Below, piece by piece: positions 26,282 through 49,915 of a stretch of DNA of 64,000 nt (positions within the stretch are counted from its first letter, which is position 1; every line of letters begins with the position of its first letter). The stretch is from Micromussa lordhowensis (Eukaryota > Cnidaria > Anthozoa > Scleractinia > Lobophylliidae): contig OZ026599.1 in assembly GCA_964020085.1 (NCBI GenBank), forward strand, positions 29,109,033-29,173,032, read 5' to 3'. The notes beneath the pieces are model-generated. The model did no database searches. It was not told the DNA's origin and worked only from the letters and a program-made list of their open reading frames with translations. Position numbers and translations under genes: made by a program.

Positions 26282-26287
26282 TTTTTC
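26282..26287. repeat. Target site duplication, left copy (TTTTTC)
   Basis: Six bases directly before the Polinton end, identical to 49910-49915. Six-bp duplications are the rule for Polinton integrases. Confidence 0.92.
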
Positions 26288-26460
26288 AGTAGTACAGTTC
26301 GCGCCTCTGGGTCATAACCAATCAGAGAGCAGGATTAATACCACGTGACCAAAATGGACCAATCAGAATGCAGCTAGCACATTCCATTCTCACATTCCAT
26401 TCCAGCGCCATCTTGAATACCGAGTGCGCTACTGGGGCCGAGTCGCGCCTGCGCACAACA
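26288..26460 (+). repeat. Polinton 1 left terminal inverted repeat
   Basis: 173 bp matching the reverse complement of 49737-49909. I see two differences: T for A in the AGTACAGTTCGCG stretch, and A for G in AGGATTAATACC. It contains a CACGTG, two CCAATCAGA (CCAAT-box-like) sites and a GC-rich inner end (GCGCCTGCGCAC). Confidence 0.95.
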
Positions 26461-27538: not shown

Positions 27539-27751
27539 TCAATCACTGTCAATCACTCGTTCATTTTTGTGACATTTCAATCCCTTAGTTAACCAACTTG
27601 TTTTTTTCTTTTGATTGGATTTGAATAACCATTCTTTGTCTTCTTCTTTTTTTGGTTTTAGTCGTTCGTGGATGTGTGGCAATACTGACATTACTTTCCC
27701 CATTTTCAAGTTGCGATCATTCACCATTGCTACTACCAACACCAGGATCAT
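27539..27751 (-). CDS. Hypothetical basic protein, 62-70 aa
   Basis: Two possible starts, ATG 27751 (70 aa) or ATG 27727 (62 aa). The latter overlaps the stop of the upstream coiled-coil ORF by 11 bp. The product is Lys-rich (KPKKEEDKEW, NQKKKTSW) and could be a DNA- or RNA-binding tail. It has no promoter of its own, so it would be the second cistron of the coiled-coil unit. No family recognised. Confidence 0.4.
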   Translation of the reverse strand: MILVLVVAMVNDRNLKMGKVMSVLPHIHERLKPKKEEDKEWLFKSNQKKKTSWLTKGLKCHKNERVIDSD

Positions 27752-27917
27752 TTTTTCTTTGCATAATGATTCTTTGATTTACCTCCTCTAGGATGGATTC
27801 CAATTCAAGGAATTCTTCTTCTATTTCTTGCAAGTGAATTTGTATACTTTCAATGTGGGTTAAAATTTCTGAATAGGATTGTTTGAACGCTGTAAGCATT
27901 CCATCTGCTTGTGCCAT
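27717..27917 (-). CDS. Small coiled-coil protein, 66 aa
   Basis: I chose ATG 27917 (MAQADGML) because a TATAAAA box lies about 40 bp upstream, although the frame is open further back. Residues 10-50 (EILTHIESIQIHLQEIEEE, LELESILEEVNQRI) show a clear heptad pattern, so an oligomeric coiled coil is likely. It follows directly after the last RING cassette exon. Function unknown. Confidence 0.6.
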   Translation of the reverse strand: MAQADGMLTAFKQSYSEILTHIESIQIHLQEIEEEFLELESILEEVNQRIIMQRKNDPGVGSSNGE

Positions 27918-27962: not shown

Positions 27963-27969
27963 CAATTTT

Positions 27970-28284
27970 TTAATGTGTCGTCTCCACTTTTTGAATACAA
28001 TAGAATAACACTTGATAATCCGCAATGAAAAGTGTATTACCGCGAGGAACACAGCATAAATGAATAGAATAACGACAAGGCATAAACATACATTGTAAAA
28101 GGTAATGTACATGGTGCATTGCTAATGACATTGAAATTGAACCTTGAGTAAACTGTCTAGTTCTAGGTCCTAACATGTTTATGTAAATATGTAAAGTGAC
28201 ACCTCTAGGATCATTAATGGCACGTAAAAGTGTTTGGCAAATACATCTGTGTAAATTTTTAATATGATGAATTCTGAAAGGCAA
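27970..28284 (-). CDS. RING-array cassette exon k (104 codons)
   Basis: The acceptor ATTTTTTACAG ends at 28285; the exon starts at 28284 with TTG and no ATG. In phase 0, the phase left by the RING exon donor, it reads LPFRIHHIKNL and stays open for 104 codons to a stop at 27970. It shares the LPFR opening with exons i and g, and the strand-like IYINMLGPRT segment resembles FLIVGPRN of exon i. Inferred role: one of the alternative C-terminal domains of the RING protein. This is the last cassette. Confidence 0.7.
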   Translation of the reverse strand: MPFRIHHIKNLHRCICQTLLRAINDPRGVTLHIYINMLGPRTRQFTQGSISMSLAMHHVHYLLQCMFMPCRYSIHLCCVPRGNTLFIADYQVLFYCIQKVETTH

Positions 28285-28301
28285 CTGTAAAAAATAGTAT
28301 T

Positions 28302-28403
28302 TTAAAAGGGGTTATTGATTCGTACAAAGTGTCCGTAACCGTCTCGTATTAGACGTAAGTTAAGTCTAAATCTAGCATATCGTAATCTTCTTTCTAAGGT
28401 TAA
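28302..28403 (-). CDS. RING-array cassette exon j (short, 33 codons)
   Basis: The acceptor TTATTTTTCAG lies inside the last codons of exon i. In phase 0 the exon encodes 33 residues, Arg/Leu-rich (LERRLRYARFRLNLRL), and stops at 28302. It is much shorter than its neighbours, so it may be a decayed or truncated cassette, or the acceptor may not be used. Confidence 0.4.
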   Translation of the reverse strand, partial: LTLERRLRYARFRLNLRLIRDGYGHFVRINNPF

Positions 28404-28726
28404 CTGAAAAATAACGAGAGAGAGTTACATGTTATCAAAATGCGTTCTACATTATATACCATCCAACCATCCCCTAAGATTGAAATAGGATTCCAAATGA
28501 TTCTTATTTTATAACGAAATGGTAATCTTAAAAGATTAAAAAATTGATGCATGTCGTTATTTATAGGTCCATTTCTTGGACCTACTATTAAAAAATAAAA
28601 TCGAACTATTAAATTATTAGATAGGGTGGCTGACCATTGATCCCAAGTCATGATTTCATTTATGATTTTAGGTAGTAGGTTTCCCTTGGTGAATAAAATG
28701 TTTCCTCCATGAAATCTGAAAGGGAG
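28400..28726 (-). CDS. RING-array cassette exon i (108 codons)
   Basis: The acceptor is a T-run ending TTTTTTTAG at 28727. Phase 0 gives LPFRFHGGNILF and 108 codons to the stop at 28400; without splicing, the first ATG would be at codon 26. A second LPFR (LLRLPFRYKIRI) occurs two thirds of the way along, preceded by the segment FYFLIVGPRNG, so the exon seems to hold a helix-strand-helix-strand unit. Inferred substrate-binding module of a spliced RING protein. Confidence 0.72.
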   Translation of the reverse strand, partial: LPFRFHGGNILFTKGNLLPKIINEIMTWDQWSATLSNNLIVRFYFLIVGPRNGPINNDMHQFFNLLRLPFRYKIRIIWNPISILGDGWMVYNVERILITCNSLSLFFS

Positions 28727-28759
28727 CTAAAAAAATACCATGCATCAACTTTTTTATAT

Positions 28760-29095
28760 TCAATGAAAATGTCTGTAATCATGAAAATCAGTGTGATTGT
28801 AAGTACATGATGTTAAACAATATTTATTGATTGGGAGCCAATCAGGTGCAGTTTCATCAGCTGCTGAAAAAATGAAACATAGTTTCCCCATTTGGGTTAG
28901 ATAAAATGCTACATGTAAAGGTAAAATAAATTGTGCGAGCCTTGACATATCTCGTTGATATCGATTACGTACATGTCCATTAAGATAGAACACAATGCGA
29001 TTTCTGTCGGAGTCAAGGTATTCATTATGTAAGGTATGATTTAGAATAAATGTTAACATTCTTCTTAGATCTTGTACTTGTACTGTGTATTCAAA
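28760..29095 (-). CDS. RING-array cassette exon h (111 codons)
   Basis: The acceptor ATTTTATTTTTTCAG ends at 29096. Phase 0 gives FEYTVQVQDLRR, then M at codon 13, open to a stop at 28760. The layout again reads helix, strand (RIVFYLNGHVRN), helix (DMSRLAQFIL) and strand (PLHVAFYLTQ). Same family pattern as exons g, i and k, strongly diverged. Confidence 0.72.
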   Translation of the reverse strand, partial: FEYTVQVQDLRRMLTFILNHTLHNEYLDSDRNRIVFYLNGHVRNRYQRDMSRLAQFILPLHVAFYLTQMGKLCFIFSAADETAPDWLPINKYCLTSCTYNHTDFHDYRHFH

Positions 29096-29116
29096 CTGAA
29101 AAAATAAAATGATTTT

Positions 29117-29494
29117 TTAAGAAAATGAAGTGTATTTTCTTTTGTAGTGATTGAAAGTTTGATTAAATAGATTGTATTTGTGACTGAATGAGGAAAGTTC
29201 AAAGTGAGCAAATTCGTAGACTTCATCATCAAAATATCCTGTGTGATATTCCAATGACAAAAAAAAACGAAAAGGATTTAAAAAATGAATGAAATCTTTC
29301 ATATGGTTTTTACAATGAGAAATGTTATTGGAGCCACCGCGTAGAACAATATGAAATCTACGCCGTCCTAATACAAGATGGCTTCTTCTTGCTAATGCTT
29401 GATCTTGCAAATTCATATCAGGTCCTGTTTCAAAGGCTATTATTGTTTTTATGATCTGTTTCACTTGTTGTGGATTGTAGAATCGAAAAGGAAA
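29117..29494 (-). CDS. RING-array cassette exon g (125 codons)
   Basis: The acceptor TTTATTTTTTTTAG ends at 29495. Phase 0 gives FPFRFYNPQQVKQII with no ATG before codon 27, open for 125 codons. Internal motifs are RRFHIVLRGGSNN and a second PFR copy (FLNPFRFFLSLEY). The absence of an ATG at the start argues that an upstream exon supplies the start codon. Confidence 0.73.
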   Translation of the reverse strand, partial: FPFRFYNPQQVKQIIKTIIAFETGPDMNLQDQALARRSHLVLGRRRFHIVLRGGSNNISHCKNHMKDFIHFLNPFRFFLSLEYHTGYFDDEVYEFAHFELSSFSHKYNLFNQTFNHYKRKYTSFS

Positions 29495-29514
29495 CTAAAA
29501 AAAATAAAAAAACT

Positions 29515-29790
29515 TTAGTAATTAACAAAAAGCCAAGCTTTAAAATTATTGGTAGTATTATAATAATGAACTTCAAACTCGAAAGTTAAATCGTCAATGA
29601 ATTTCCGGGTCAGATTTTGTAATATTGGGAAAAAATCGACAGTTTGATCTCTACAAAAGATGTCATAGTTTAAAATTGGTCTAGTCCAGGACCTAAAATG
29701 ATCTTCTTCTTGTTCCTCTTCTTCCCAAGAAGGGTAGTGTCTCAATTTATGAATCACACGTAATAATTTCCATGGTGAACCTTGAATGAA
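29515..29790 (-). CDS. RING-array cassette exon f (91 codons)
   Basis: The acceptor CTTAATTTTTATAG ends at 29791. Phase 0 gives FIQGSPWKLLRVIHKL and 91 codons to a stop at 29515; the whole frame contains no ATG. It has an acidic insert (EEEEQEED) and then strand-like segments (LTFEFEVHYYN). It is a good example of an exon that cannot be an independent gene. Confidence 0.73.
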   Translation of the reverse strand, partial: FIQGSPWKLLRVIHKLRHYPSWEEEEQEEDHFRSWTRPILNYDIFCRDQTVDFFPILQNLTRKFIDDLTFEFEVHYYNTTNNFKAWLFVNY

Positions 29791-29841
29791 CTATAAAAAT
29801 TAAGAATAGAAAGATTTAAGTCTATCACGTTGATTAATTCA

Positions 29842-30132
29842 TTACTCATGATGCCATGAGTAATGAAAGTCTGATCTCGTGTGACCCATGATTAACCCAT
29901 AGGTGTCGAATCGCATTTGATTATGAAAAAAAATAAAATATGGAGCACCTGAGTATTGTATAGGATGAAAGTCAATTGAGATCTCGTCCGTAACAGTAAC
30001 CTTATCGGTAATTCGATCAATCAATGTGATAAAATTCTGCTCTCCCATAACGAGCACAAGGTAGTTGTTCACGCGTAAATTACATAAATGAATATAGTAA
30101 ATGCATAGACATCTTTGTTCTCTCAGGGTGCA
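29842..30132 (-). CDS. RING-array cassette exon e (96 codons)
   Basis: The acceptor TTTTAATTTTTCAG ends at 30133. Phase 0 gives CTLREQRCLCIYYIHL and 96 codons to a stop at 29842. The first 40 residues match exons c and d in pattern (R....IY, then a strand with VNNYLVLVMGEQN). The first ATG is at codon 29. Confidence 0.72.
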   Translation of the reverse strand, partial: CTLREQRCLCIYYIHLCNLRVNNYLVLVMGEQNFITLIDRITDKVTVTDEISIDFHPIQYSGAPYFIFFHNQMRFDTYGLIMGHTRSDFHYSWHHE

Positions 30133-30163
30133 CTGAAAAATTAAAATTAAAAATTAAAGAAAA

Positions 30164-30419
30164 TTAAAGAAAAAGTGGTGTACTGAATCTACTGATTTCA
30201 TTATCATAGTATGCTCTGAAATCTTTATACCATGACAATATGATCTGATTATTATTATAATAGGTGGGAGGGTGTTCAAATTCAATAACTGAGACAGGAA
30301 TGTAACGATGTTGTATTGTTAGATGTTGCACCATGTTATTGAAAATGTGAGATCCATAAGTCCTGGTATTAACAAATATGATTTGTGGATTCACACGATA
30401 TTCTTGTCTAAAAGGATCC

Positions 30420-30425
<6 letters not shown>
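30164..30425 (-). pseudogene. RING-array cassette exon d, 3' part (cut by LINE)
   Basis: This is the distal part of cassette d, separated from its acceptor and first 18 codons (32041-32094) by a LINE. An ATG lies in the duplicated target (30421), so an 85-codon reading frame survives, but it is detached from the RING splice acceptor. Motifs resemble exon c (IIFVNTRTYGSHIFNNM against a similar strand-helix segment). Unless the LINE is spliced out, this cassette should be dead. Confidence 0.65.
30412..30425. repeat. LINE target site duplication, left
   Basis: AAGGATCCATCCTT, identical to 32031-32044. Its last two T bases merge with the poly(A) tail, so the true length is 12-14 bp. Confidence 0.85.
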
Positions 30426-30462
<37 letters not shown>

Positions 30463-32030
30463 TGCTTTGCACAAACACAAGAAACTATACCACACACTAC
30501 TGTCTTAAAACTATCCTACTGACAATCTAATTGGAGCAACTAAAAATACTTAACCTACATGTAACTTATATGACTACAAGAATACTAATACTAACAAACA
30601 AGGTTGCAATAGCCCTAGCACTAGAATTTTAAAAAATTAAACATATATTCTAGGTGTTTTAATTCACATTATTCCCTTGTCATTTAAATTCTACATATAA
30701 TAAAAGAAAATAAGAAGAAGGAGAGGAGGAACTTTATGTTTTAAAATATTAAATAATCTTTTCGATTTTATACTTGTATTTTATTTTATTGATAAAATCA
30801 ACGATCTGCATTGGTGGTGAGTTATTTTGGAGCTTACATCTATAAATATAATAACGCAAGAAGAGAAGAGTATAATTCAATTTCTTTGTTGGTGTGTCTG
30901 ATGCAGAGAAGAGGCCAAAGAGGACGTCTTCAGCATTTAAAATAAAGTTAGAGCTATTACTTTCATTAAACCATTGTAATACTTCTTGAGTAAAGGTTTT
31001 TGTGACCTGGCACTCAATAAAGGTGTGGTCTATGGAGTCTGATTCCCCGCAATAAACGCAATTGCTATCTGGTTTGATGTTAAATCGGAACAATTCCTTC
31101 TTTGTAACAACTACTCTGTGAATGAATTTAAAGTGGAATTCTCTTAACTTGTTTTCCTTGCATACCTTTCGAACCGACCTAAATATGGTTTTCCAGTTTG
31201 TTTTATCCTCTGTAATAGTTTTATTCCATCGCCTTGGGCCTGAATGCTGATCATTATATCTACGCTGAATAATTAGCCAATAGAAGTCTTTTGACTTTGC
31301 CTTAAGCAAATTTATATTCACATTTTCAGTTAGGCAGAAGGATTCCAGATCCTCATGACTAACACCTTTAGATCCTGAATCCTTAGATTTTGCTTTTGCC
31401 AAGAGGTGACCTGGAATAGCGGAAATAACTTGGAAATAATGCAGGAAGGAAGTTTTCTTCAACGAATATTTGCGCTGAAAGACGGGAAAGGGCAGGACTT
31501 GCCCCTTCTCATCGAAAAGATCTTCAATTCTTTTAATTCCTTTCATGAACCATTCCTTCCAGAAAAACGTTTTACCATCGATACGGATTTCCTTATTGTT
31601 AAATAAGATTGTATCTCCCACATCACATCCATAAAGAGTCTTCAGTTCATGAAAGTACAGGAGGATGTCCCTGTAAAATAGTGGCATATTTTGGAAGTCT
31701 ATAACGTGATAATTGCACGTCAACAGAAATCGAAGTCCTCCATAAGATTTTAGGAAGTGATCTGAAGCAAATTTCCAATTTGATTGGCCATTTTTTAACA
31801 GTCTTGGAATCCATGCTAACCTTAACGCTTTTATCATTGTTTCAATGTCTGTCATACGCAGCCCACCATTATCATAATCCTGGTATAATCCCTCTCTTTT
31901 TATTTTATCTCTTTTATTTTTCCACAGAAAAGAAAACAGCCTTCTCTTAACGTTGCCGGCAATATCGTTTGGTACATTGATATTTGAAGCTGAATAAATT
32001 AAAGATGATACCCCAAGCGTCTTGATTATC
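30426..32030 (-). mobile_element. 5'-truncated LINE (non-LTR retrotransposon)
   Basis: A 1.6-kb insertion with a 35-nt poly(A) tail (a T-run on the plus strand, 30426-30460), about 290 bp of 3' UTR and the end of a reverse-transcriptase ORF open up to the 5' junction. Flanked by 14-bp target duplications. This is a classic target-primed, 5'-truncated insertion, recent because the tail and ORF are intact. Confidence 0.92.
30749..32030 (-). pseudogene. LINE ORF2 C-terminal fragment (about 427 codons)
   Basis: The reading frame has no ATG at its 5' end and simply begins at the insertion junction, so the endonuclease and the RT catalytic core are missing. What remains looks like the region after the RT palm in L1-like LINEs: LWKNKRDKIKREGLYQDY with NGGLRMTDIETMIKALRLAW near the start. 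A zinc-knuckle-like C-x2-C-x7-H-x4-C (CVYCGESDSIDHTFIEC) lies near the C-terminus. The stop is at 30749. Clade assignment to L1-like is by motif only. It is inactive on its own. Confidence 0.85.
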
Positions 32031-32044
32031 AAGGATCCATCCTT
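32031..32044. repeat. LINE target site duplication, right
   Basis: AAGGATCCATCCTT, the second copy of the duplicated target. It includes an in-frame ATG of cassette d. Confidence 0.85.
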
Positions 32045-32094
32045 GTTAATGCACGTTTATAGAGTAACAAAGCTGCTCGATCTTGATCATCGAA
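32031..32094 (-). pseudogene. RING-array cassette exon d, 5' part (cut by LINE)
   Basis: The acceptor AACTCTTTTCTTTAG ends at 32095, inside the last codons of exon c. In phase 0 the exon opens FDDQDRAALLLYKRALTR and runs into the LINE insertion. The opening resembles exon c (F....R.A....Y) and exon e. A CTATAAAC that looks like a TATA box is simply its LYKR codons. Confidence 0.65.
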
Positions 32095-32404
32095 CTAAAG
32101 AAAAGAGTTCAGCAAACACTTCATTACTATGAATAGTTTTGATAGTTCTTTCGAGTTCTTCTACAGTGGAAGTTATTGAAATTATTTGATGATAACTAAT
32201 ACAAAAATGATCAAAATCAATAACAGATGTATTAAAATATCGAATGAGAGATCTTCCTGTTAGTCTTGCACTGATCATATTTGCAACATCACGGAAATCG
32301 TTATTTCCAATTATAAAGTGTACTTGATGTGCAGGTCTTTGCTCATTTAGTTGGTCTATACACCATGCATAAATCCAAGCTAATCTAGCTTGACGATGAC
32401 TGAA
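32087..32404 (-). CDS. RING-array cassette exon c (105 codons)
   Basis: The acceptor TTAATTTTTTTCAG ends at 32405. Phase 0 gives FSHRQARLAWIYAWC with the first ATG only at codon 43, open for 105 codons to 32087. A strand-like VHFIIGNNDFRDV segment follows the first helix, as in exons d and e. Its stop overlaps the start of exon d by 8 bp. Confidence 0.72.
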   Translation of the reverse strand, partial: FSHRQARLAWIYAWCIDQLNEQRPAHQVHFIIGNNDFRDVANMISARLTGRSLIRYFNTSVIDFDHFCISYHQIISITSTVEELERTIKTIHSNEVFAELFSLVR

Positions 32405-32414
32405 CTGAAAAAAA

Positions 32415-32609
32415 TTAATTTATAAGAGCTAGTAAAAGAGGGAGTAAATGAATACTTAGAACAGTATTAGATTGATTAAAAATATCTTCATAACCATCGG
32501 CTAATCGAAAGCTAAAAGTTGCATCACTGTATTGTTGCTGTATGTAATTCCTCACTTGCTCTATAATTCTTCTGAATGCAAACACTGTAAATAATTCTAT
32601 AGTGTTCAT
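32415..32609 (-). CDS. RING-array cassette exon b (64 codons)
   Basis: The acceptor AATTTTTTTCAG is followed directly by ATG at 32609. Phase 0 encodes MNTIELFTVFAFRR and ends at 32415. It is a clear tandem duplicate of exon a, sharing the TIEL-TVFAFRR opening, a QYSD stretch, SFRLA and YEDI. Because ATG is the first codon, it could also be translated alone, but the acceptor placement matches the others. Confidence 0.68.
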   Translation of the reverse strand: MNTIELFTVFAFRRIIEQVRNYIQQQYSDATFSFRLADGYEDIFNQSNTVLSIHLLPLLLALIN

Positions 32610-32627
32610 CTGAAAAAAATTTAAGAG

Positions 32628-32834
32628 CTAGTAAAAGAGAGCTAGTAAAATAGGGAGTAAATGTCTACTAAATCTTATAACAGCATTAGATGAGAAATTA
32701 AGAATGTCTTCATAATTATTGGCTAATCGAAAGCTAATAGTTGTATCACTGTATTGCATCCAAATGTATTGTATCCCCACTTGTTCTATAAATCTTCTGA
32801 ATGCAAACACTGTAGATAATTCTATAGTGCTCAT
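32628..32834 (-). CDS. RING-array cassette exon a (68 codons)
   Basis: This is the first cassette after the RING exon. The acceptor ATTTTTTCAG ends at 32835 and the exon begins with ATG in phase 0 (MSTIELSTVFAFRR), stopping at 32628. Paralogue of exon b. The intron between RING donor and this acceptor would be 82 bp, a normal size for an invertebrate. Confidence 0.7.
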   Translation of the reverse strand: MSTIELSTVFAFRRFIEQVGIQYIWMQYSDTTISFRLANNYEDILNFSSNAVIRFSRHLLPILLALFY

Positions 32835-32910
32835 CTGAAAAAATTTTTAAAAAAATATTTTTAAAAAAGGTCTAGATCCACTTTTTTATAGGGATAAAGA
32901 AGAAGAAAAT

Positions 32911-32916
32911 ACTTAC
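32911..32916 (-). other. 5' splice donor of the RING exon
   Basis: CGT|GTAAGTATTT on the minus strand is close to the ideal metazoan donor. It cuts exactly after codon 131 (phase 0), before a 14-codon read-through tail that is low complexity (SIFFFFIPIKKWI). Confidence 0.8.
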
Positions 32917-33309
32917 ACGTTGTAGTTGTTCTTCTAACTCTTCAGATTGCAATAATTCGCTCAATCTGGCAATCACTTGTTCGCGGGACATGGACAAGAC
33001 TTCATGGGTGATCTCGTCAAAGTTTAGAGAATCCGTAGGAATGTCAATGTCTTCTGATCGAATCGGATTGGATTCACCTGCGCTGAGTACCACATCAGTT
33101 GTTAAGGATCCTCGACACATTCCACAGTTTCTTCCTTCAGCTTGCCATCGAGCTTGACATCGTTGATGCACAAAGTTTTTACAGCAGGCTAGCTGCATGG
33201 TACCCATATCGCAAGTGTATGAAGTGCCATGACAAATGAAACATTGAAAAGTGGTTTGTAGAATTTCAGGTGCTTCCAGACGAAGTCTTTTACTCTGACG
33301 GCCAGCCAT
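32917..33309 (-). CDS. RING-finger first exon of the cassette array (131 codons)
   Basis: Starts at ATG 33309 (MAGRQSKR). Residues 23-65 form a RING-type zinc site: C23-x2-C26, C42-C43-x4-H48-x2-C51, C62-x2-C65. An acidic segment and a C-terminal helix with coiled-coil character (REQVIARLSELLQSEELEEQ) follow. RING domains bring E2 enzymes to substrates, so an E3 ubiquitin ligase role is likely. The exon ends at a strong donor in phase 0, upstream of eleven phase-0 acceptors. The neighbouring divergent gene has the same unusual CC-x4-H-x2-C spacing. Without splicing the ORF would end after 14 more low-complexity residues. Confidence 0.85.
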
Positions 33310-33374
33310 TCTTGTTTTTCAGCGTAATGAGTTTTCGTACAATTGTGAAAATGATCTCCAAAGGTGGTTTACTT

Positions 33375-33382
33375 CTTATATA
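33375..33382 (-). promoter_or_regulatory. TATA box of the RING-cassette gene
   Basis: TATATAAG on the minus strand, about 66 bp before ATG 33309. The same octamer precedes the 180-aa gene that diverges from polB. Confidence 0.55.
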
Positions 33383-33394
33383 GGATTTATTAAG

Positions 33395-33495
33395 GTCATG
33401 TGACCTATCACGTGATCTCATATTGAGAAGGGGGGATACCCCCCCATCCCCCTAATATGACCACGTGATGTCTACGTCATAGTGTCACATGACGT
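33395..33495. promoter_or_regulatory. Shared divergent-promoter module, copy 1
   Basis: Lies between the two RING genes. Half A (33397-33452) contains CACGTG at 33409 and GGGGGATACCCCCCC. Half B (33455-33495) contains CACGTG at 33462, CTACGTCATAG and CACATGAC. Both halves recur between the 180-aa gene and polB (45170-45271), half A inverted and half B direct. The E-box-like CACGTG/CACATG sites and the GGGGATACCCC palindrome are likely transcription factor sites. Confidence 0.7.
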
Positions 33496-33512: not shown

Positions 33513-33549
33513 CTAAGGCGATTTTGGGGGATTGAACATCATTATTAGT

Positions 33550-34011
33550 ATGAGTGTCGCAATGTCGAGTGGAGAAGACGATTGCATCATCTGCTTCTAC
33601 CCAACCACAGAAGCAAGTAGCGCCTGTTGTCAACAACCGATTCATTACAATTGTATTGATCGGTGGTTTCATACACAGCTGCAGACCAAATCTTTCTCAG
33701 ATATCACATGCCCTTACTGCCGTACCAGGATCAACAGCGTTAATTTTGACATTATGGTTTCCAACTACAAGAACGCCATGGAGTCCAAACCTTTCTACGA
33801 GGATCGCGTGTTTATGAGAGCCGCTAAAGCTGCATGGGGTGATCGTCCTTTATGGAGAGGTAACGATGGCTATTTTTATGGTGAAATGTGGAACGTAACC
33901 TCTAATACCTCCGATGTGATGTTCCTGGGGTGTAACAAGGAGCAGACTTTGGCTCGCATGCGTGCCATCACGAACTATTTAGTTACACTATCATGCGAAT
34001 ATATGGAGTGA
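33550..34011 (+). CDS. RING-finger protein, 153 aa (probable E3 ligase)
   Basis: Start chosen at the first ATG, 33550 (MSVAMSSGED); the frame is open a little further upstream but with TTG only. The RING residues are C12-x2-C15, C26-C27-x4-H32-x2-C35 and C54-x2-C57. This matches the cassette-array RING across the shared promoter, so the two genes probably arose by duplication. The C-terminal 90 residues (WGDRPLWRGNDGYFYGEMW) match nothing I know. Unlike its partner it has one exon and no cassettes. An AATAAA at 34151 could end the transcript. Probable early viral ubiquitin ligase. Confidence 0.85.
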   Translation: MSVAMSSGEDDCIICFYPTTEASSACCQQPIHYNCIDRWFHTQLQTKSFSDITCPYCRTRINSVNFDIMVSNYKNAMESKPFYEDRVFMRAAKAAWGDRPLWRGNDGYFYGEMWNVTSNTSDVMFLGCNKEQTLARMRAITNYLVTLSCEYME

Positions 34012-37668: not shown

Positions 37669-39090
37669 TCAATCCACTCTACCCACTATCATCTGTTGCC
37701 TGTAAATGTCGTATTGCACACTGCCGGTGGGTTTTATTTCCAACATGTTTTCAAATTCACCATAAATAATGACAGTGATGCCATGATTGACATTAGCCCC
37801 CAATTGCAAGTAGATCTTTAACCGTCCTTGTTGTCGTGGGTTAAGGTCATCACTTTCTTGACAGCCTGAAGCCACATTATTCCACATGAACAATGTAGTG
37901 TTTTTGTTTTGTCCCCAATGCTCGTAACCTAACATACTTCTTCCATTTTCATTCAGACAACCAGCTGTAATCAGGCGGTAATAGCCTTCCATGTCTAGTT
38001 GACCATTGTCATGATTCATTTCTAGGGCTTCATCGGGATATTCTTCCCCTTCAATGATTTGTTTAATATTTTTAATTCCAAACTTTTGGAATGAGAATGG
38101 ATTCCATTTGTAACCACCATTGTATGCATTTTGGTGCACTAATCCTACTATGGTACGATCTGGAATACGTCCATTGAAGATGTCTGTTTCTTCCCAAGTA
38201 CGGGTATTGGTTGGGATGGTGAATGATCTGATTTCTGATCGCACTGTTGGGTAATACACAGATTTCATTTGCCTCAATCTCATTTCTGAGATGTCATTGA
38301 ACTTGTCAGATCTGACTCTTACAAGGCAAGCGATGAACTCCATTTTGAAATTCTCCTGAGTTAGTTGAGCGGTATTTACAATACCGTTGCAGAAGAAGGA
38401 CGGTTCATTCAATGTGAACCGCATCTTGAGATCCACTGAAGGCACCAATAAACGCCGCACTTGGAAAATGTCAATATGTGGCTTCCCAAGCAATTGAAGG
38501 GTTTTTCCATCTTTAATTCTATTTTTCAACTTAAACGCATTGACGAACGCTTTTTTGGCTTCAGAACTCAATGCTACATAGTCAGCATGACCATTTCCTC
38601 CATTGGCTGCAGTGTCAATATTGGTTGCGGTTATTTCCGGTGTGTGATCCAAGGCTGAGTAGAATCCTTGCGGTTCCAAGTAGGTTTCAGCGGCTTCTTT
38701 GTCATAATTTAGGATGGTCTCCAAGTACGCTTTGTACGCATACGTGTCGGTCTGCTCTGTGATCAAAGTGCCATTGAGATAAACTGAGGGTTGTTTGATG
38801 ATTGTATGAAACGCATTAGATGCTAGCCACGTGTTTGTTGCATCCGCAATATTGCCCCCACCACCTTCGAGCAATTTTAATTCCATTTTAAAATAGCTTC
38901 GTGAAAGATCTATGTAATCACGACCTCCAGGAATATTGAATTCCACTGGATTAATGCTACGGCTTGTAGGATCAATGGTCACCATCCTGTAACTGTGAAT
39001 GGATGTATCCGTTGCAGGAACCGTGAAAAGGTCCAAAACGGCATTTTCGGTTTGACCGGATGCCTCGTGGGCTGGAATGGGTTGTGCCAT
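37669..39090 (-). CDS. Major capsid protein, double jelly-roll, 473 aa
   Basis: Start chosen at ATG 39090 (MAQPIPAHEA), 43-49 bp after a TATAAAA box; an upstream in-frame start at 39156 would lie before that TATA. The N-terminal motif YIDLSRSYFKMELKLL and the spacing of strands match Polinton and adintovirus hexon-like proteins. Length is typical (about 450-600). It forms the pseudo-hexameric capsomers. Intact, so particle formation is plausible. Confidence 0.93.
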   Translation of the reverse strand: MAQPIPAHEASGQTENAVLDLFTVPATDTSIHSYRMVTIDPTSRSINPVEFNIPGGRDYIDLSRSYFKMELKLLEGGGGNIADATNTWLASNAFHTIIKQPSVYLNGTLITEQTDTYAYKAYLETILNYDKEAAETYLEPQGFYSALDHTPEITATNIDTAANGGNGHADYVALSSEAKKAFVNAFKLKNRIKDGKTLQLLGKPHIDIFQVRRLLVPSVDLKMRFTLNEPSFFCNGIVNTAQLTQENFKMEFIACLVRVRSDKFNDISEMRLRQMKSVYYPTVRSEIRSFTIPTNTRTWEETDIFNGRIPDRTIVGLVHQNAYNGGYKWNPFSFQKFGIKNIKQIIEGEEYPDEALEMNHDNGQLDMEGYYRLITAGCLNENGRSMLGYEHWGQNKNTTLFMWNNVASGCQESDDLNPRQQGRLKIYLQLGANVNHGITVIIYGEFENMLEIKPTGSVQYDIYRQQMIVGRVD

Positions 39091-39132
39091 CTCGTCAATA
39101 AAAATGAATGTTGCAAAAGTCTCTTTTTTCCT

Positions 39133-39139
39133 TTTTATA
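39133..39139 (-). promoter_or_regulatory. TATA box of the MCP unit
   Basis: TATAAAA on the minus strand, two bases past the stop of the upstream basic gene. It decides the MCP start at 39090. Confidence 0.7.
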
Positions 39140-39140
39140 G

Positions 39141-39485
39141 CTATTGATATAACCACGGCTCTGGAATTCGTCGATAACTACTTTGCGCTGCACCAGTTAA
39201 TCCCATCCGTTTATAATCTTTTTGTTTACCCAATTTATACCCCATCTTTGCAGCACCCAGAAAAACGTTACCTCCTTTTTGTCTTCTTTTCCTTCGTCTT
39301 TGTTTTCGTTGACGTATTAATTTTTTGGAAGCAGCCACTAAACTTGGTGAAAACAAAGTAAATTGACCTCCTTTCTGTTTACGCCTTGTCATAGCGGTTC
39401 TTCTCACAGCTAATCCTACATTACGGTATGGATTTCTGAAACTCACTGTGGGTACAATACCTTGACTTCTCAACTGGTAATCCAT
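39141..39485 (-). CDS. Basic core protein with two GG cleavage-like sites, 114 aa
   Basis: ATG 39485 overlaps the previous stop as TGATG. The N-terminal part (MDYQLRSQGIVPTVSF) is followed by KQKGGQFT (about 37-44) and RRQKGGNVFLGA (about 68-79). Between them is a dense basic stretch (RQRKQRRRKRR). This is the layout of adenovirus-like core peptides cut by the viral protease. Probably binds genome DNA in the particle. Confidence 0.7.
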   Translation of the reverse strand: MDYQLRSQGIVPTVSFRNPYRNVGLAVRRTAMTRRKQKGGQFTLFSPSLVAASKKLIRQRKQRRRKRRQKGGNVFLGAAKMGYKLGKQKDYKRMGLTGAAQSSYRRIPEPWLYQ

Positions 39486-45169: not shown

Positions 45170-45271
45170 ATATAACACGTGATGTCTACGTCATAGGGTC
45201 ACATGACCTACTGAGGGGATGGGGGGGTATCCCCCATTCTCAATATGAGGTCACGTGATAGGTCACATGGT
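45170..45271. promoter_or_regulatory. Shared divergent-promoter module, copy 2
   Basis: Holds CACGTGATGTCTACGTCATAG and CACATGAC (half B, direct relative to copy 1). It also holds GGGGGGGTATCCCCC and CACGTG at 45252 (half A, inverted relative to copy 1). Half A is next to polB here and next to the RING-cassette gene in copy 1, in the same orientation relative to the gene. Confidence 0.7.
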
Positions 45272-45283
45272 ACAAATATATAC

Positions 45284-45290
45284 TATAAAA
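45284..45290 (+). promoter_or_regulatory. TATA box of polB
   Basis: TATAAAA, 48-54 bp before ATG 45338. It decides against the earlier in-frame ATG at 45245, which lies inside the promoter module. Confidence 0.65.
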
Positions 45291-45337
45291 CAGGTCGACA
45301 ATCTTCAAAAAAATCACATTTGAATAAGAAGGAGAAG

Positions 45338-48300
45338 ATGGCTAATCGTTTTTTCAAGTTCAATTTAGAACAATTCCGAGACAGAACAGCAAGAAGCTAT
45401 GGATTGAGAAGAACCTCTTATCATCTACGTGTGACCAACCCACCAGAAACACGACCTACAAGACATGCTAACATAGTAAGAGAATTTGAAGAAGGATTGA
45501 CAGATGCCATAGACAATTTGATAGAAGACTTGCCAGATCATGATAGAATTCAACTTTATTTGAGTTCGAATCGCTTACGAAGTGCTCACACTTCAGCACC
45601 TGTCAGTGTGAGTGGTTGGAGAGACACCATGGGGGTTTCGAGACAAATTTTGAATCAAATTTCAAAAATGTTGAACTCGAACGAAAACTTTGAAGTGGAT
45701 GACACTTTACAATTAGATATCACACACGTTAAAATGCCAGAACCTGGTACAGGAAAAAGAAGATGGAAATTCGGCATGGACAACTACACCGAATTACTTA
45801 AAAAGAAACAAAGTGTCATCGTCATCCAAAACAAAGATGAACTTTGTTGTGCTCGAGCTCTGGTAACAGCCCGAGCGAAAGTAGACAACAGCACTGAATA
45901 TAATAACATAAAGAGAGGACGTGAAAGTCAAGAAACGCAAGCAAGAGAATTACATTCGCAAGCTGGTGTCACTATAGGACCATGTGGACTCAAAGAAATC
46001 GCACAATTTCAAGCAATCTTAAATGATTATCAAATCATAGTTATTTCTGCTGAACATGGACATAGTATCGTGTACAAAGGTCCTGAACGACAGAAGCAAC
46101 TTATGCTGTTGATGCATGATGCCCACTTTGATGTCATTACTTCTCTAGCAGGGTTTTTTTCAAAAAATTATTTTTGTTTAAGCTGTGAAAGAGGATACTT
46201 TCACGACAATATAAAAGAACACAACTGTAATGGAAAAAAGTGCTTTGCCTGCCACCAAGTTGACTGTGATGATTTTAAAAGAAAATTAAATGAAGTCCCA
46301 GAAATCAAATGCACTTATTGCAATCGAGGATTTTACGGTGCCATTTGTCAAACAAACCATTTGATACGTACTGCCAGTGGACAATCAGCTGATCATCATA
46401 AAAAGAAGAGTCTGTGTCAATCACACAAACTATGTTCAGAATGTGGAAAAAACAAAAATAGAAAGCATGTATGTGGTGAAAATGAATGTCTTTCATGTAA
46501 AAAAACAGTGAACTTACAACAACACAAGTGTTACATTCAATGCTCTGACTTAGATGAAGATGCGTACGATGATGAAAACGAAACACATCCTGTATTTGTT
46601 TATTTTGACATTGAAGCCAGACAAGACACGGGAAATCACATTGCCAATCTCGTTTGTGCAGAAACTGATCAAGATGGTGAAAAACACTCGTTTTATGGAG
46701 ATACCTGTTTAGAAGAATTCCTGAAATGGGTGCATTCCGTTGCCAATCAAGAAGACATAGAGAAAGTTATTGTTGTGGCACACAATTTCAAAGGCTATGA
46801 TGGATACCTCATCTTGGAGGAACTTTATAGACAGCATGTGACCAACCTCAACCTGATTGTAACAGGAGCCAAGATTCTCAGTGCTCAATTACCCAATGTG
46901 AAATTCATTGATTCAATGAATTTTTTTCCTATGGCATTGGCAAACTTTCCCAAAACATTTGGTTTGAAAGAACTGAAGAAAGGATTCTTCCCACATTTTT
47001 TCAACACGGTAGAAAATCAGAATTACAAAGGACCCATTCCAGACGTCCACTACTACGACCCTGACGGCATGTCTCCCAGCAAGCGAGAGGAATTTTTGAA
47101 ATGGCATGAAAGTAAAGTCAAAGCCAATTACATGTTTGACTTTCAACAAGAACTGTTGACGTATTGTCAATCAGACGTGCGCCTTCTCAAAGAAGGGTGT
47201 ATGAATTTTCAAAGAGAATTTAAAGCTATGATTGGATTCAATCCTATGCGTCACTGCATCACCATTGCCTCGGCGTGTAATGTGGCCTACCGAAGAAACT
47301 GGATGCCAGAAAACAAAATTGCCATTGAACCTATGTACGGGTGGAGACCCGCACATATTCAATCCATGATTGCCCTCGAATGGTTGTATTGGGAAGAAAA
47401 TAAACTAAAACATGAAGAACAAACCCCTCGAATAGCGCATGCCAGGAACCGCGGTGAAAGGCGTCTCAAACATGGAGCTTTCAATGACTTTTTAGTGGAT
47501 GGCTACGACGAGCAAACCAAAACAGTGTATGAATTTCAGGGGTGCTTTTACCATGGTTGTCTTGAATGCTTTCCAAATCGTCAACAAAATCACCCCAAGC
47601 ACAACAATAAATCCATGCACATGGTCAGGTTGCAAACGAAACAAAAAGTAGAAAAACTTCAAGAGCTAGGCTATACCGTGATTGAAATGTGGGAATGTCA
47701 ATGGAATGATCTCAAAAAAAACAATCAAGACATTGGAAACTTTGTTTCCAAATTAAAGTTGACCACTGCATTGAATCCACGGGATGCCTTTTTCGGTGGA
47801 CGCACCAATGCAATATGGCTTCATCACAAGGTGAAAGAGGACGAAGAAATCCATTACATGGATGTGACATCACTTTATCCATGGGCGAACAAGAATATGG
47901 AATATCCCATTGGTCATCCAGAATTCATTGATCAACCCAAGACAACAAATATCGACCGCTACTTTGGTGTAATCAAATGTGACATTCTTCCACCCTATGA
48001 ACTCTATCACCCTGTATTGCCATACAGGCAAGGAAAAAAACTAACATTTCCTCTGTGTAGAACATGTGTGGAAACAGAATCAGTCAAACCCATACGCGAA
48101 CGAAACATGCATTGCAATCACACTCTTGAGGAAAGAACTCTAACAGGTACTTGGTGCACTCCAGAATTGAACAAAGCCATTGACAAAGGCTATACAATAA
48201 AGTACATTTACGAAGTATGGCACTTTAAAGAAAAATCCACAGATCTTTTCAGAAAATACATTGACACCTTCTTAAAGTTAAAGCAGGAAGCTTCAGGATG

Positions 48301-49150
48301 GCCTGGTGAATGTCAAACAGAGGAAGATCGAGCCAAGTATGTGACTGATTACCAAAAGCATGAAAAGATTCAACTCGAACCACAGAAAATCTGTAAAAAT
48401 CCTGGAAAACGACAACTGGCAAAATTGATGTTAAATTCATTCTGGGGCAAGTTTGGACAACGATCCAATCTCACGCAAGTAACTACTTGTGACAAACCTG
48501 ACCTTTTTTTTCAGATCCTACAAGATGACAGTCAACTCATTCACCGGATTGAAATTATGAATGAAGAAATGGTAGAAATATTTCATTCATTTCAGCAAGA
48601 GTGTGATCCCATTCAAATCAATGTGAACATTTTCATTGCCTGTTTCACAACATGTTACGCAAGACTCAAACTCTATGAGGCATTAGACCAATTACAAGAA
48701 CAGGTATTGTACTTTGACACAGATTCAGTGGTGTACGTATGGAAACCTGGTCAAACCTGTATTACTGTTGGAAACTACTTGGGAGAATTCACCTCGGAGT
48801 TACAAGAAGGGGATCATATTCAAGAATTTGTAGCAGCTGGACCCAAGAATTACGCCTATGTTACCAAAAATGGAGAAACCTGTTGTAAAGTCAGAGGATT
48901 CACACTCAACACCCGAGGGCAACAAGTCCTGAATTTCACAAGTATGAAAGACTTGGTTCTAACTGAAATTTTAGAACCTGAAAACGAAACACGTACTTTA
49001 ACATTAAACAATCCTCATAAAATCGTACGAGAGCCAGCCACCAAGAAGATCAAGACCGTGGAACAAGACAAACAGTACAAGTTGGTCTTCGACAAACGCA
49101 TCTTAGACATGAACACTTTTAAATCTTATCCCTATGGATACAAACAATGA
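45338..49150 (+). CDS. Protein-primed DNA polymerase B, 1270 aa
   Basis: Start chosen at MANRFFKFN after the TATA box. The N-terminal part has Cys/His clusters (CLSCERGYFHDN, CFACHQVDC). The exonuclease motifs are FDIEA (about 423), NFKGYD (about 481) and YCQSD (about 608). A GCFYHGC-type segment (about 735) common in Polinton PolB follows. The polymerase motifs are A, DVTSLYP (about 841); B, KLMLNSFWGKFG (about 1028); and C, YFDTDS (about 1125). It replicates linear element DNA from terminal protein primers. No break seen. A second partial copy at the right window edge is near-identical. Confidence 0.96.
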   Translation: MANRFFKFNLEQFRDRTARSYGLRRTSYHLRVTNPPETRPTRHANIVREFEEGLTDAIDNLIEDLPDHDRIQLYLSSNRLRSAHTSAPVSVSGWRDTMGVSRQILNQISKMLNSNENFEVDDTLQLDITHVKMPEPGTGKRRWKFGMDNYTELLKKKQSVIVIQNKDELCCARALVTARAKVDNSTEYNNIKRGRESQETQARELHSQAGVTIGPCGLKEIAQFQAILNDYQIIVISAEHGHSIVYKGPERQKQLMLLMHDAHFDVITSLAGFFSKNYFCLSCERGYFHDNIKEHNCNGKKCFACHQVDCDDFKRKLNEVPEIKCTYCNRGFYGAICQTNHLIRTASGQSADHHKKKSLCQSHKLCSECGKNKNRKHVCGENECLSCKKTVNLQQHKCYIQCSDLDEDAYDDENETHPVFVYFDIEARQDTGNHIANLVCAETDQDGEKHSFYGDTCLEEFLKWVHSVANQEDIEKVIVVAHNFKGYDGYLILEELYRQHVTNLNLIVTGAKILSAQLPNVKFIDSMNFFPMALANFPKTFGLKELKKGFFPHFFNTVENQNYKGPIPDVHYYDPDGMSPSKREEFLKWHESKVKANYMFDFQQELLTYCQSDVRLLKEGCMNFQREFKAMIGFNPMRHCITIASACNVAYRRNWMPENKIAIEPMYGWRPAHIQSMIALEWLYWEENKLKHEEQTPRIAHARNRGERRLKHGAFNDFLVDGYDEQTKTVYEFQGCFYHGCLECFPNRQQNHPKHNNKSMHMVRLQTKQKVEKLQELGYTVIEMWECQWNDLKKNNQDIGNFVSKLKLTTALNPRDAFFGGRTNAIWLHHKVKEDEEIHYMDVTSLYPWANKNMEYPIGHPEFIDQPKTTNIDRYFGVIKCDILPPYELYHPVLPYRQGKKLTFPLCRTCVETESVKPIRERNMHCNHTLEERTLTGTWCTPELNKAIDKGYTIKYIYEVWHFKEKSTDLFRKYIDTFLKLKQEASGWPGECQTEEDRAKYVTDYQKHEKIQLEPQKICKNPGKRQLAKLMLNSFWGKFGQRSNLTQVTTCDKPDLFFQILQDDSQLIHRIEIMNEEMVEIFHSFQQECDPIQINVNIFIACFTTCYARLKLYEALDQLQEQVLYFDTDSVVYVWKPGQTCITVGNYLGEFTSELQEGDHIQEFVAAGPKNYAYVTKNGETCCKVRGFTLNTRGQQVLNFTSMKDLVLTEILEPENETRTLTLNNPHKIVREPATKKIKTVEQDKQYKLVFDKRILDMNTFKSYPYGYKQ

Positions 49151-49736: not shown

Positions 49737-49909
49737 TGTTGTGCGCAGGCGCGACTCGGCCCCAGTAGCGCACTCGGTATTCAAGATGGCGCTGGAATGG
49801 AATGTGAGAATGGAATGTGCTAGCTGCATTCTGATTGGTCCATTTTGGTCACGTGGTATCAATCCTGCTCTCTGATTGGTTATGACCCAGAGGCGCGTAC
49901 TGTACTACT
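49737..49909 (-). repeat. Polinton 1 right terminal inverted repeat
   Basis: 173 bp, reverse complement of 26288-26460 with two differences. It matches 62661-62833 of Polinton 2. Confidence 0.95.
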
Positions 49910-49915
49910 TTTTTC
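49910..49915. repeat. Target site duplication, right copy (TTTTTC)
   Basis: Matches 26282-26287. The satellite T-tract and CTGGCC continue directly after it. Confidence 0.92.

Follow-up and report, generated by a model that had tools for sequence, protein, structure and literature searches.

How does a single RING exon relate to the eleven short reading frames that follow it on the same strand of a virus-like mobile element? This question is raised by a Polinton in the genome of the scleractinian Micromussa lordhowensis, which we analyzed within a stretch of 64,000 nucleotides (the window; C5:29109033-29173032, in a host genome of 580.8 Mb and 1383 contigs). Our analysis indicates that the eleven frames, termed cassettes a to k, are probably alternative last exons that share one RING exon, an arrangement that would yield a set of predicted E3 ubiquitin ligases differing in their ends, which probably bind targets.

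One splice donor and eleven in-phase acceptors

The constant exon, its splice donor and the cassettes are arranged as follows, all on the reverse strand.

32917..33309, reverse strand: constant RING exon, 131 codons in translation
32909..32916, reverse strand: 5' splice site GTAAGTAT, phase 0, unchanged across all 13 copies
32628..32834, reverse strand: cassette a, 68 aa, ATG right after the acceptor
32415..32609, reverse strand: cassette b, 64 aa, tandem duplicate of a including the acceptor
32087..32404, reverse strand: cassette c, 105 aa, first Met at 43
32031..32094, reverse strand: cassette d, upstream piece up to a long interspersed nuclear element (LINE)
30426..32030, reverse strand: LINE copy inside cassette d, zf-RVT 3.8e-07, own AATAAA at 30463 and poly-A
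30164..30425, reverse strand: cassette d, downstream piece beyond the LINE
29842..30132, reverse strand: cassette e, 96 aa
29515..29790, reverse strand: cassette f, 91 aa, no Met
29117..29494, reverse strand: cassette g, 125 aa
28760..29095, reverse strand: cassette h, 111 aa
28400..28726, reverse strand: cassette i, 108 aa
28302..28403, reverse strand: cassette j, 33 aa, no Met
27970..28284, reverse strand: cassette k, 104 aa

The RING exon ends at CGT|GTAAGTAT, and translation confirmed the first-pass annotation of this locus, which had placed the end after codon 131 in phase 0. At every one of the eleven acceptors a T-rich stretch and YAG are followed by a phase-0 open frame that runs to its own stop. 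The window thus holds one donor, eleven acceptors in the same phase and a separate stop for each exon, and the starts, polypyrimidine-AG tracts, phases and stops listed by the first-pass annotation were right in all eleven cases. Its spacing of 20-60 bp or an overlap needed adjustment, as the overlaps are real (c/d and i/j) but the gaps measure 10-51 nt, with the d/e gap taken from the downstream piece of d. Many of the frames do not begin near a start codon. In L009, a copy of the array without the LINE that is described below, the first Met lies at residue 1 in a and b, 13 in h, 19 in d, 26 in i, 27 in g, 29 in e, 37 in k and 43 in c, and it is absent from the whole of f and j. The remark that several cassettes lack an early ATG and that f has none is thereby borne out, and extends to j.

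It had also been argued that only about one acceptor in three would fall in phase 0 by chance. We scored this on the uninterrupted copy L009 without regard to phase, taking the best-scoring acceptor for each sense open reading frame (ORF) with a simple matrix. The best acceptor lay at offset 0 for nine of the 11 sense ORFs of at least 60 aa, which exceeds the chance expectation of 1/3 (binomial, ∼0.0014); one of these nine is a shadow ORF, and at a threshold of 80 aa the count is 6 of 8. The misses are cassettes i and k, in which a competing AG lies 11 nt inside, within the PFR codons. On the opposite strand of the L009 array no ORF of at least 60 aa was found.

Cassette d requires separate mention. 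Its start was listed correctly, but as an intact cassette it does not exist in the window, where the LINE splits it and leaves only 21 codons. The insertion is flanked by a ∼14-bp duplication and poly-A, and lies on the same strand as the cassettes. The LINE is absent from cassette d in the 12 other close copies, in which the frame is an uninterrupted 103 aa. Cassettes a and b are the sole plain duplicates in the array, and their acceptor was duplicated along with the frame. A Pfam scan of seven cassettes (c, e-i and k) gave no match above cut-off.

The window RING carries eight zinc ligands in RING order, in the pattern C-x2-C..CC-x4-H-x2-C..C-x2-C, an order that we take to resemble RING-CH. 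Against zf-RING_2 it scored E=0.013 with 16.2 bits and missed the curated Pfam cut-off of 27.3. From the kept zinc ligands and the plan of the array we infer a predicted ubiquitin ligase activity combined with target binding.

Copies of the array in the host genome

The RING exon has 21 matches in the genome, comprising at least 13 close copies (window included; 94-100% at the protein level) and 8 more distant ones, and we compared the stretches around all 20 other matches with the window. Cassettes a to k stand in the same order in 13 of 13 close copies. Across these copies YAG is kept at 143/143 acceptors and 136/143 cassettes are undisrupted. The seven disrupted cassettes are d in the window (the LINE), a in L010, e in L017, L018 and L020, and both h and i in L016. 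Cassette e is open in six further copies (L010-L015) with another end, giving 94 aa. A single long decayed gene, considered as another account of the region, is rejected, as most stops and all acceptors are alike in the other copies.

The copy L009 (C5:29188291-29188683) lies ∼15 kb past the window in inverted orientation. Its RING is 99% and its cassettes are 100% identical to those of the window, and the two may possibly represent a segmental duplication. L009 is 95.8-97.7% identical to 10 other copies (window and L016 left out). Later insertions were observed in two copies, one of ∼340 extra bases in intron 1 of L017 and one of ∼1.2 kb between h and i of L016.

Homologous proteins and single-ORF relatives

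Four proteins match the RING, of which P0001 is 96% and P0002-P0004 are 45-62% identical. P0001, which is probably from the same species as the window, continues past the donor as the window does, and no spliced protein is among the four. All four keep V-S, encoded by GTAAGT, and in the three diverged proteins (P0002-P0004) similarity to the RING is lost right after V-S. P0002 has 22 open codons past the donor and runs in frame into a cassette-a homologue; an unspliced message there would therefore also give RING plus cassette a.

When the cassettes were searched against the protein collection, eight proteins were returned at E<=10. Seven appear to be near-copies of cassettes h, k, f, a and c; the sole diverged protein is P0011, a cassette-c homologue from a 2183-bp contig. 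It matches c at 32 of 41 positions before the first Met of c (residues 2-42) and at 49 of 63 from there on. The stretch of c ahead of its first Met is thus as conserved in P0011 as the remainder of c.

Several more distant loci carry simpler forms of the gene. In L021 the RING and a C-terminal end are contained in one ORF of 256 aa (RING match 1.1e-14), and L022-L024 look like decayed relatives of L021. In L025 a single ORF covers the RING and a first end, and a second end lies in a different frame; in L027 a stop separates the RING from the first end, and a second end comes after it. The linkers of L025 and L027 contain the donors AAG|GTACGG and TAG|GTACGC (phase 1), with an acceptor at offset 2 before the second end, which is a match in phase; these splice sites were chosen by eye. 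Because the two elements are related, L025 and L027 are counted as one supporting case and not two. ORFs resembling PLA2, capsid or integrase proteins adjoin L021 and L027, as judged by eye.

A search with L021 and L025 returned 71 proteins (P0013-P0083), 35 of which measure 230-270 aa and not all of which are full length. Members of this family combine a RING with a C-terminal domain and often carry an acidic VLETDEE linker; those scanned gave no Pfam match above cut-off. In an alignment of 11 fused proteins the C-terminal domain is shared, and its motif order looks like helix-strand-helix-strand-strand. Of 75 family proteins, 57 contain the ordered RING ligand pattern and several of the remaining 18 are cut inside the RING; the eight ligand positions are invariant in three family alignments. 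A Gly-Thr pair occurs in 34 of 56 fused-family linkers, as compared with 182 of 1329 40-residue windows from the 71 proteins (linkers included), and may reflect a hidden GGTAC donor, a point that we treat as a lead only. Scans of the viral-contig collection with the RING alignment and with the fused-family alignment returned no relatives. A RING gene with one end seems to be the common form, of which the array would be an elaboration.

Selection on the RING exon and the cassettes

We estimated the ratio of nonsynonymous to synonymous substitution (dN/dS) among the copies, after dropping 0 to 2 disrupted copies per cassette (13 copies remained for g and k, 12 for i; cassette e of L018 was kept). 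Ratios were low for the RING (0.27) and for b (0), g (0.11), i (0.20), k (0.25) and d (0.35). The others were f 0.44, e 0.57, h 0.84, j 1.00, c 1.09 and a 1.46. The single ratios are imprecise because there are few changes per cassette. Codon positions with a single change, summed over the cassettes, comprised 48 synonymous and 61 nonsynonymous changes with 29.5% synonymous expected (p=0.0009), where the expectation uses the observed transition bias and the count leaves out 70 complex sites, of which cassette e has 43. This excess of synonymous change points to coding selection on the cassettes, while a, c and j look neutral. The ratio tests that the first-pass annotation had proposed gave a sign of coding selection in the pool, low ratios in g, i, k and b, and ratios near or above 1 in a, c and j.

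Relatedness and fold of the cassettes

The cassettes had been described as sharing a loose pattern with a PFR or F opening. This description found little support, as PFR is common to g, i and k only and the profile tests were mostly not significant. Leave-one-out profiles were built for eight of the 11 cassettes (b, d and j unused); these beat shuffled sequences in 1 of 8 cases under one alignment setting and in 0 of 8 under the other, the single case being g, which was matched by 1 of 2000 shuffles. In hhalign comparisons among the cassettes 6 of 45 pairs had E<0.05, with a best probability of 6.3%, which is not significant, and comparisons of the cassettes with the fused C-terminal end were not significant by BLASTP, profiles or hhalign. 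Against a profile of L021, i, k and g, cassette c and L027c1 were matched by only 7 and 11 of 1000 shuffles, respectively, which we do not count as proof.

A structure model was usable for one protein only, P0007, which is 98% identical to k. It has a mean pLDDT (predicted local distance difference test) of 54.6 and a pTM (predicted template modeling score) of 0.49, and comprises a helix (9-24), a strand (30-38), a second helix (52-66) and two strands (71-78 and 93-103). At E<=0.001 the P0007 model had no counterpart in the PDB. A common cassette fold is accordingly unsupported by sequence and weakly supported by this one low-confidence model, and the common-fold pattern put forward by the first-pass annotation is not upheld.

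Predicted promoter, polyadenylation signal and transcript layout

The following features bound the predicted transcription unit.

33361..33451, reverse strand: predicted RING-gene promoter stretch, 91 nt, 82% copy of the stretch 5' of the DNA polymerase B gene (pPolB)
45215..45305, forward strand: matching stretch on the 5' side of pPolB
27969..27974, reverse strand: predicted shared poly(A) site ATTAAA, overlapping the k stop, with GU-rich TGTGTGT downstream

The block CAATATGAG..CACGTG..GGTCACATG was found nowhere in the window but at these two places, with up to 7 mismatches allowed. The promoter-like copy at 45215-45305 overlaps the first ATG of the pPolB ORF (45245), and the true pPolB start is for this reason probably a later Met. 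The idea that one promoter serves the array is made plausible by this stretch shared with pPolB, which the first-pass annotation had not reported. At the other end, all 13 copies have ATTAAA and TGTGTGT where k ends. A poly(A) hexamer after each cassette was not found in the copies. Past the donor, 11 copies (window and L016 not included) have just two further hexamers, AATAAA within h and ATTAAA within k, except that L014 has one additional ATTAAA just after h.

From these elements we propose the following course of expression. The RING gene would be expressed early, together with pPolB, from the promoter-like stretch, and one transcript would run through the whole array to the ATTAAA at the k stop. 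The single donor would pick one acceptor per mRNA, so that each message would encode the RING and one end and all messages would be 3'-coterminal. The products would be ubiquitin ligases with host proteins as their targets. The array is likely to have grown by tandem duplication of units made of an acceptor and a frame, for which the a/b pair is the model. Many transcripts of the window copy would likely be cut short by the LINE in cassette d; cassettes e-k may therefore be lost from the output of this copy.

Alternative explanations

Could the eleven frames be independent small genes that follow a RING gene ending a few codons past codon 131? The RING frame, when read past the donor, does reach a stop after 145 codons, and a and b start with ATG. 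We nevertheless regard this reading as very improbable and have rejected it. Met is absent from f and j and first appears at residues 19-43 in c, d, e, g, i and k, two pairs of frames overlap and the remaining gaps are short, a poly(A) hexamer does not follow each frame, and similarity of the three diverged RING homologues stops at the donor. The array might instead be in partial decay, with b, g, i, k, d and f used as alternative last exons and the others being duplicated or neutral leftovers. The dN/dS values of a, c, j and h are consistent with such decay, as are the disturbance of e in 3 of 13 copies, of h and i in L016 and of a in L010, and the mere 33 codons of j. These same cassettes are included in the 143 of 143 conserved acceptors, however, open-frame homologues of a (P0002) and c (P0011) exist on other contigs, and the ratios rest on few changes; we consider partial decay unlikely. 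Alternative last exons could also be real while the products are something other than ligases, such as decoys, inhibitors or regulators whose RING is a binding module, or ends acting at the virion or DNA level. The RING falls below the Pfam cut-off, the P0007 model has no PDB match and the cassettes show no significant relation to the fused end, which leaves room for such products, but the invariance of the eight ligand positions in three family alignments and the ordered ligand pattern in 57 of 75 proteins speak against this reading. This alternative, too, we judge to have a low probability.

Alternative last exons joined to a shared RING exon, with ligase products, remain the probable explanation, and several observations weigh against it. 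The sub-threshold score of the window RING is one. In the sense-strand scan of L009 the RING donor ranks third and is outscored by six sites on the opposite strand, the donor matrix again being a simple one. Premature transcript ends could arise at the AATAAA in h and the ATTAAA in k. Conservation among the 13 copies is in part shared descent, since these copies are young. Cassettes a, c and j have dN/dS values of ∼1 or above and h has 0.84, and the ratio for a versus b is ∼0.99. Codons before the first Met, together with all of f and j, had 11 synonymous and 18 nonsynonymous changes, which is not significant, and since p=0.27 this test is silent on selection ahead of the Met. The cassettes are not demonstrably related to each other or to the fused end, the model of P0002 (RING plus cassette a) is poor with a mean pLDDT of 41.4, and the linker of L025 has several other GT sites, which makes the phase match there weak evidence. 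Taken together, the splicing model of the first-pass annotation is sustained by comparison with respect to its one donor, its phase-0 acceptors and a poly(A)-like signal at the end of the array, and by the existence of fused and two-ended relatives, and is not sustained with respect to a common fold.

A broader proposal, which we advance tentatively and with less than even confidence, is that the Polinton encodes a splice-programmed E3 repertoire. One RING, an early promoter of the pPolB type and eleven duplicated and diverged recognition cassettes would together direct the degradation of many host proteins, each duplicated unit would allow a new target, and a second Polinton family in this genome would have smaller versions with another intron phase.

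Relation to known systems

The arrangement resembles that of the insect loci mod(mdg4) and lola, in which a constant exon for an N-terminal domain (there BTB) is spliced to many variable 3' ends. According to one source (PMC4667647), at least 31 mod(mdg4) isoforms share one 5' exon, trans-splicing adds variable regions that are transcribed as separate primary transcripts, in some cases from the opposite strand, and most of these regions have a FLYWCH motif. In contrast to those host genes, the array described here belongs to a virus-like mobile element, and lies on one strand within ∼5.3 kb, and unlike the FLYWCH ends of mod(mdg4) its cassettes have no demonstrated common domain.

Adenoviruses, which are related to Polintons, offer a second parallel. 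Their compact linear DNA genomes have nested units in which one upstream exon, several acceptors and 3'-coterminal messages are found, a layout predicted here as well. In adenoviruses most acceptors are followed by a separate ORF that has its own start, whereas in the array the constant exon would supply both the start codon and a protein domain. The single-ORF RING relatives (L021, L025 and members of P0013-P0083) share with the array a homologous RING N-terminus and a C-terminal end of similar size, but have one or two ends as compared with eleven, and their C-terminal end cannot be aligned with the cassettes. They offer simpler proteins for structure and activity work than the array does.

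Vertebrate Mavericks and the window Polinton have a core gene set in common. According to PMC8097293, vertebrate Mavericks have terminal inverted repeats (TIRs) and 6-bp target-site duplications (TSDs), as does the window Polinton, and intact members are reported to have conserved ORFs that are intronless; the strings 'ring' and 'splic' do not occur in that text. No Polinton RING gene with alternative last exons was among the literature matches listed, with most subscription papers outside the coverage. Alternative last exons would thus be a known plan, and what appears new here is its place, a Polinton, and its constant domain, a RING. If the junctions exist, a transposon or viral locus would turn a single enzyme domain into as many as eleven products, and would do so within a group whose intact vertebrate members are reported to be intronless (PMC8097293). 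It would also provide a handle on how integrated Polintons deal with their host, with each cassette leading to a candidate host partner.

The host Polinton and neighboring features

The element in the window has the following features.

26288-49909: Polinton
26288..26460: left TIR, 173 nt, 99% complementary to the right arm, TSD TTTTTC at 26282-26287
49737..49909: right TIR, 173 nt, TSD TTTTTC at 49910-49915
45245..49150, forward strand: DNA polymerase B ORF (pPolB), DNA_pol_B_2 9.4e-47
37669-39156: capsid candidate ORF, 495 aa, assigned from place and size, without Pfam match
33532..34011, forward strand: second RING gene, zf-RING_2 8.2e-06, just below cut-off

The element is a Polinton, as the first-pass annotation had supposed. 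It has 173-nt TIRs with TTTTTC on either side, and Pfam identified the core genes, namely polymerase B, an RVE integrase (rve 2.4e-12; a chromodomain match is slightly under cut-off), a packaging ATPase (Pox_A32 7.2e-06) and an adenovirus-type protease (Peptidase_C48 8.8e-06; Peptidase_C5 0.0065, below cut-off). Pfam also identified a PLA2-like protein. Relatives of the capsid-candidate protein were not found in a scan of the viral-contig collection.

The second RING gene is divergent from the array RING and convergent with the PLA2-like gene, and has the same CC-x4-H-x2-C ligand spacing as the array RING. By eye, the fused RING gene of L025 and L027 seemingly occupies the place that matches this second RING, beside a PLA2-like frame. 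Directly after the array, at 27717-27917 on the reverse strand, lies an ATG-started frame of 66 codons that is coiled-coil-like, and the bases behind its ATG vary between copies.

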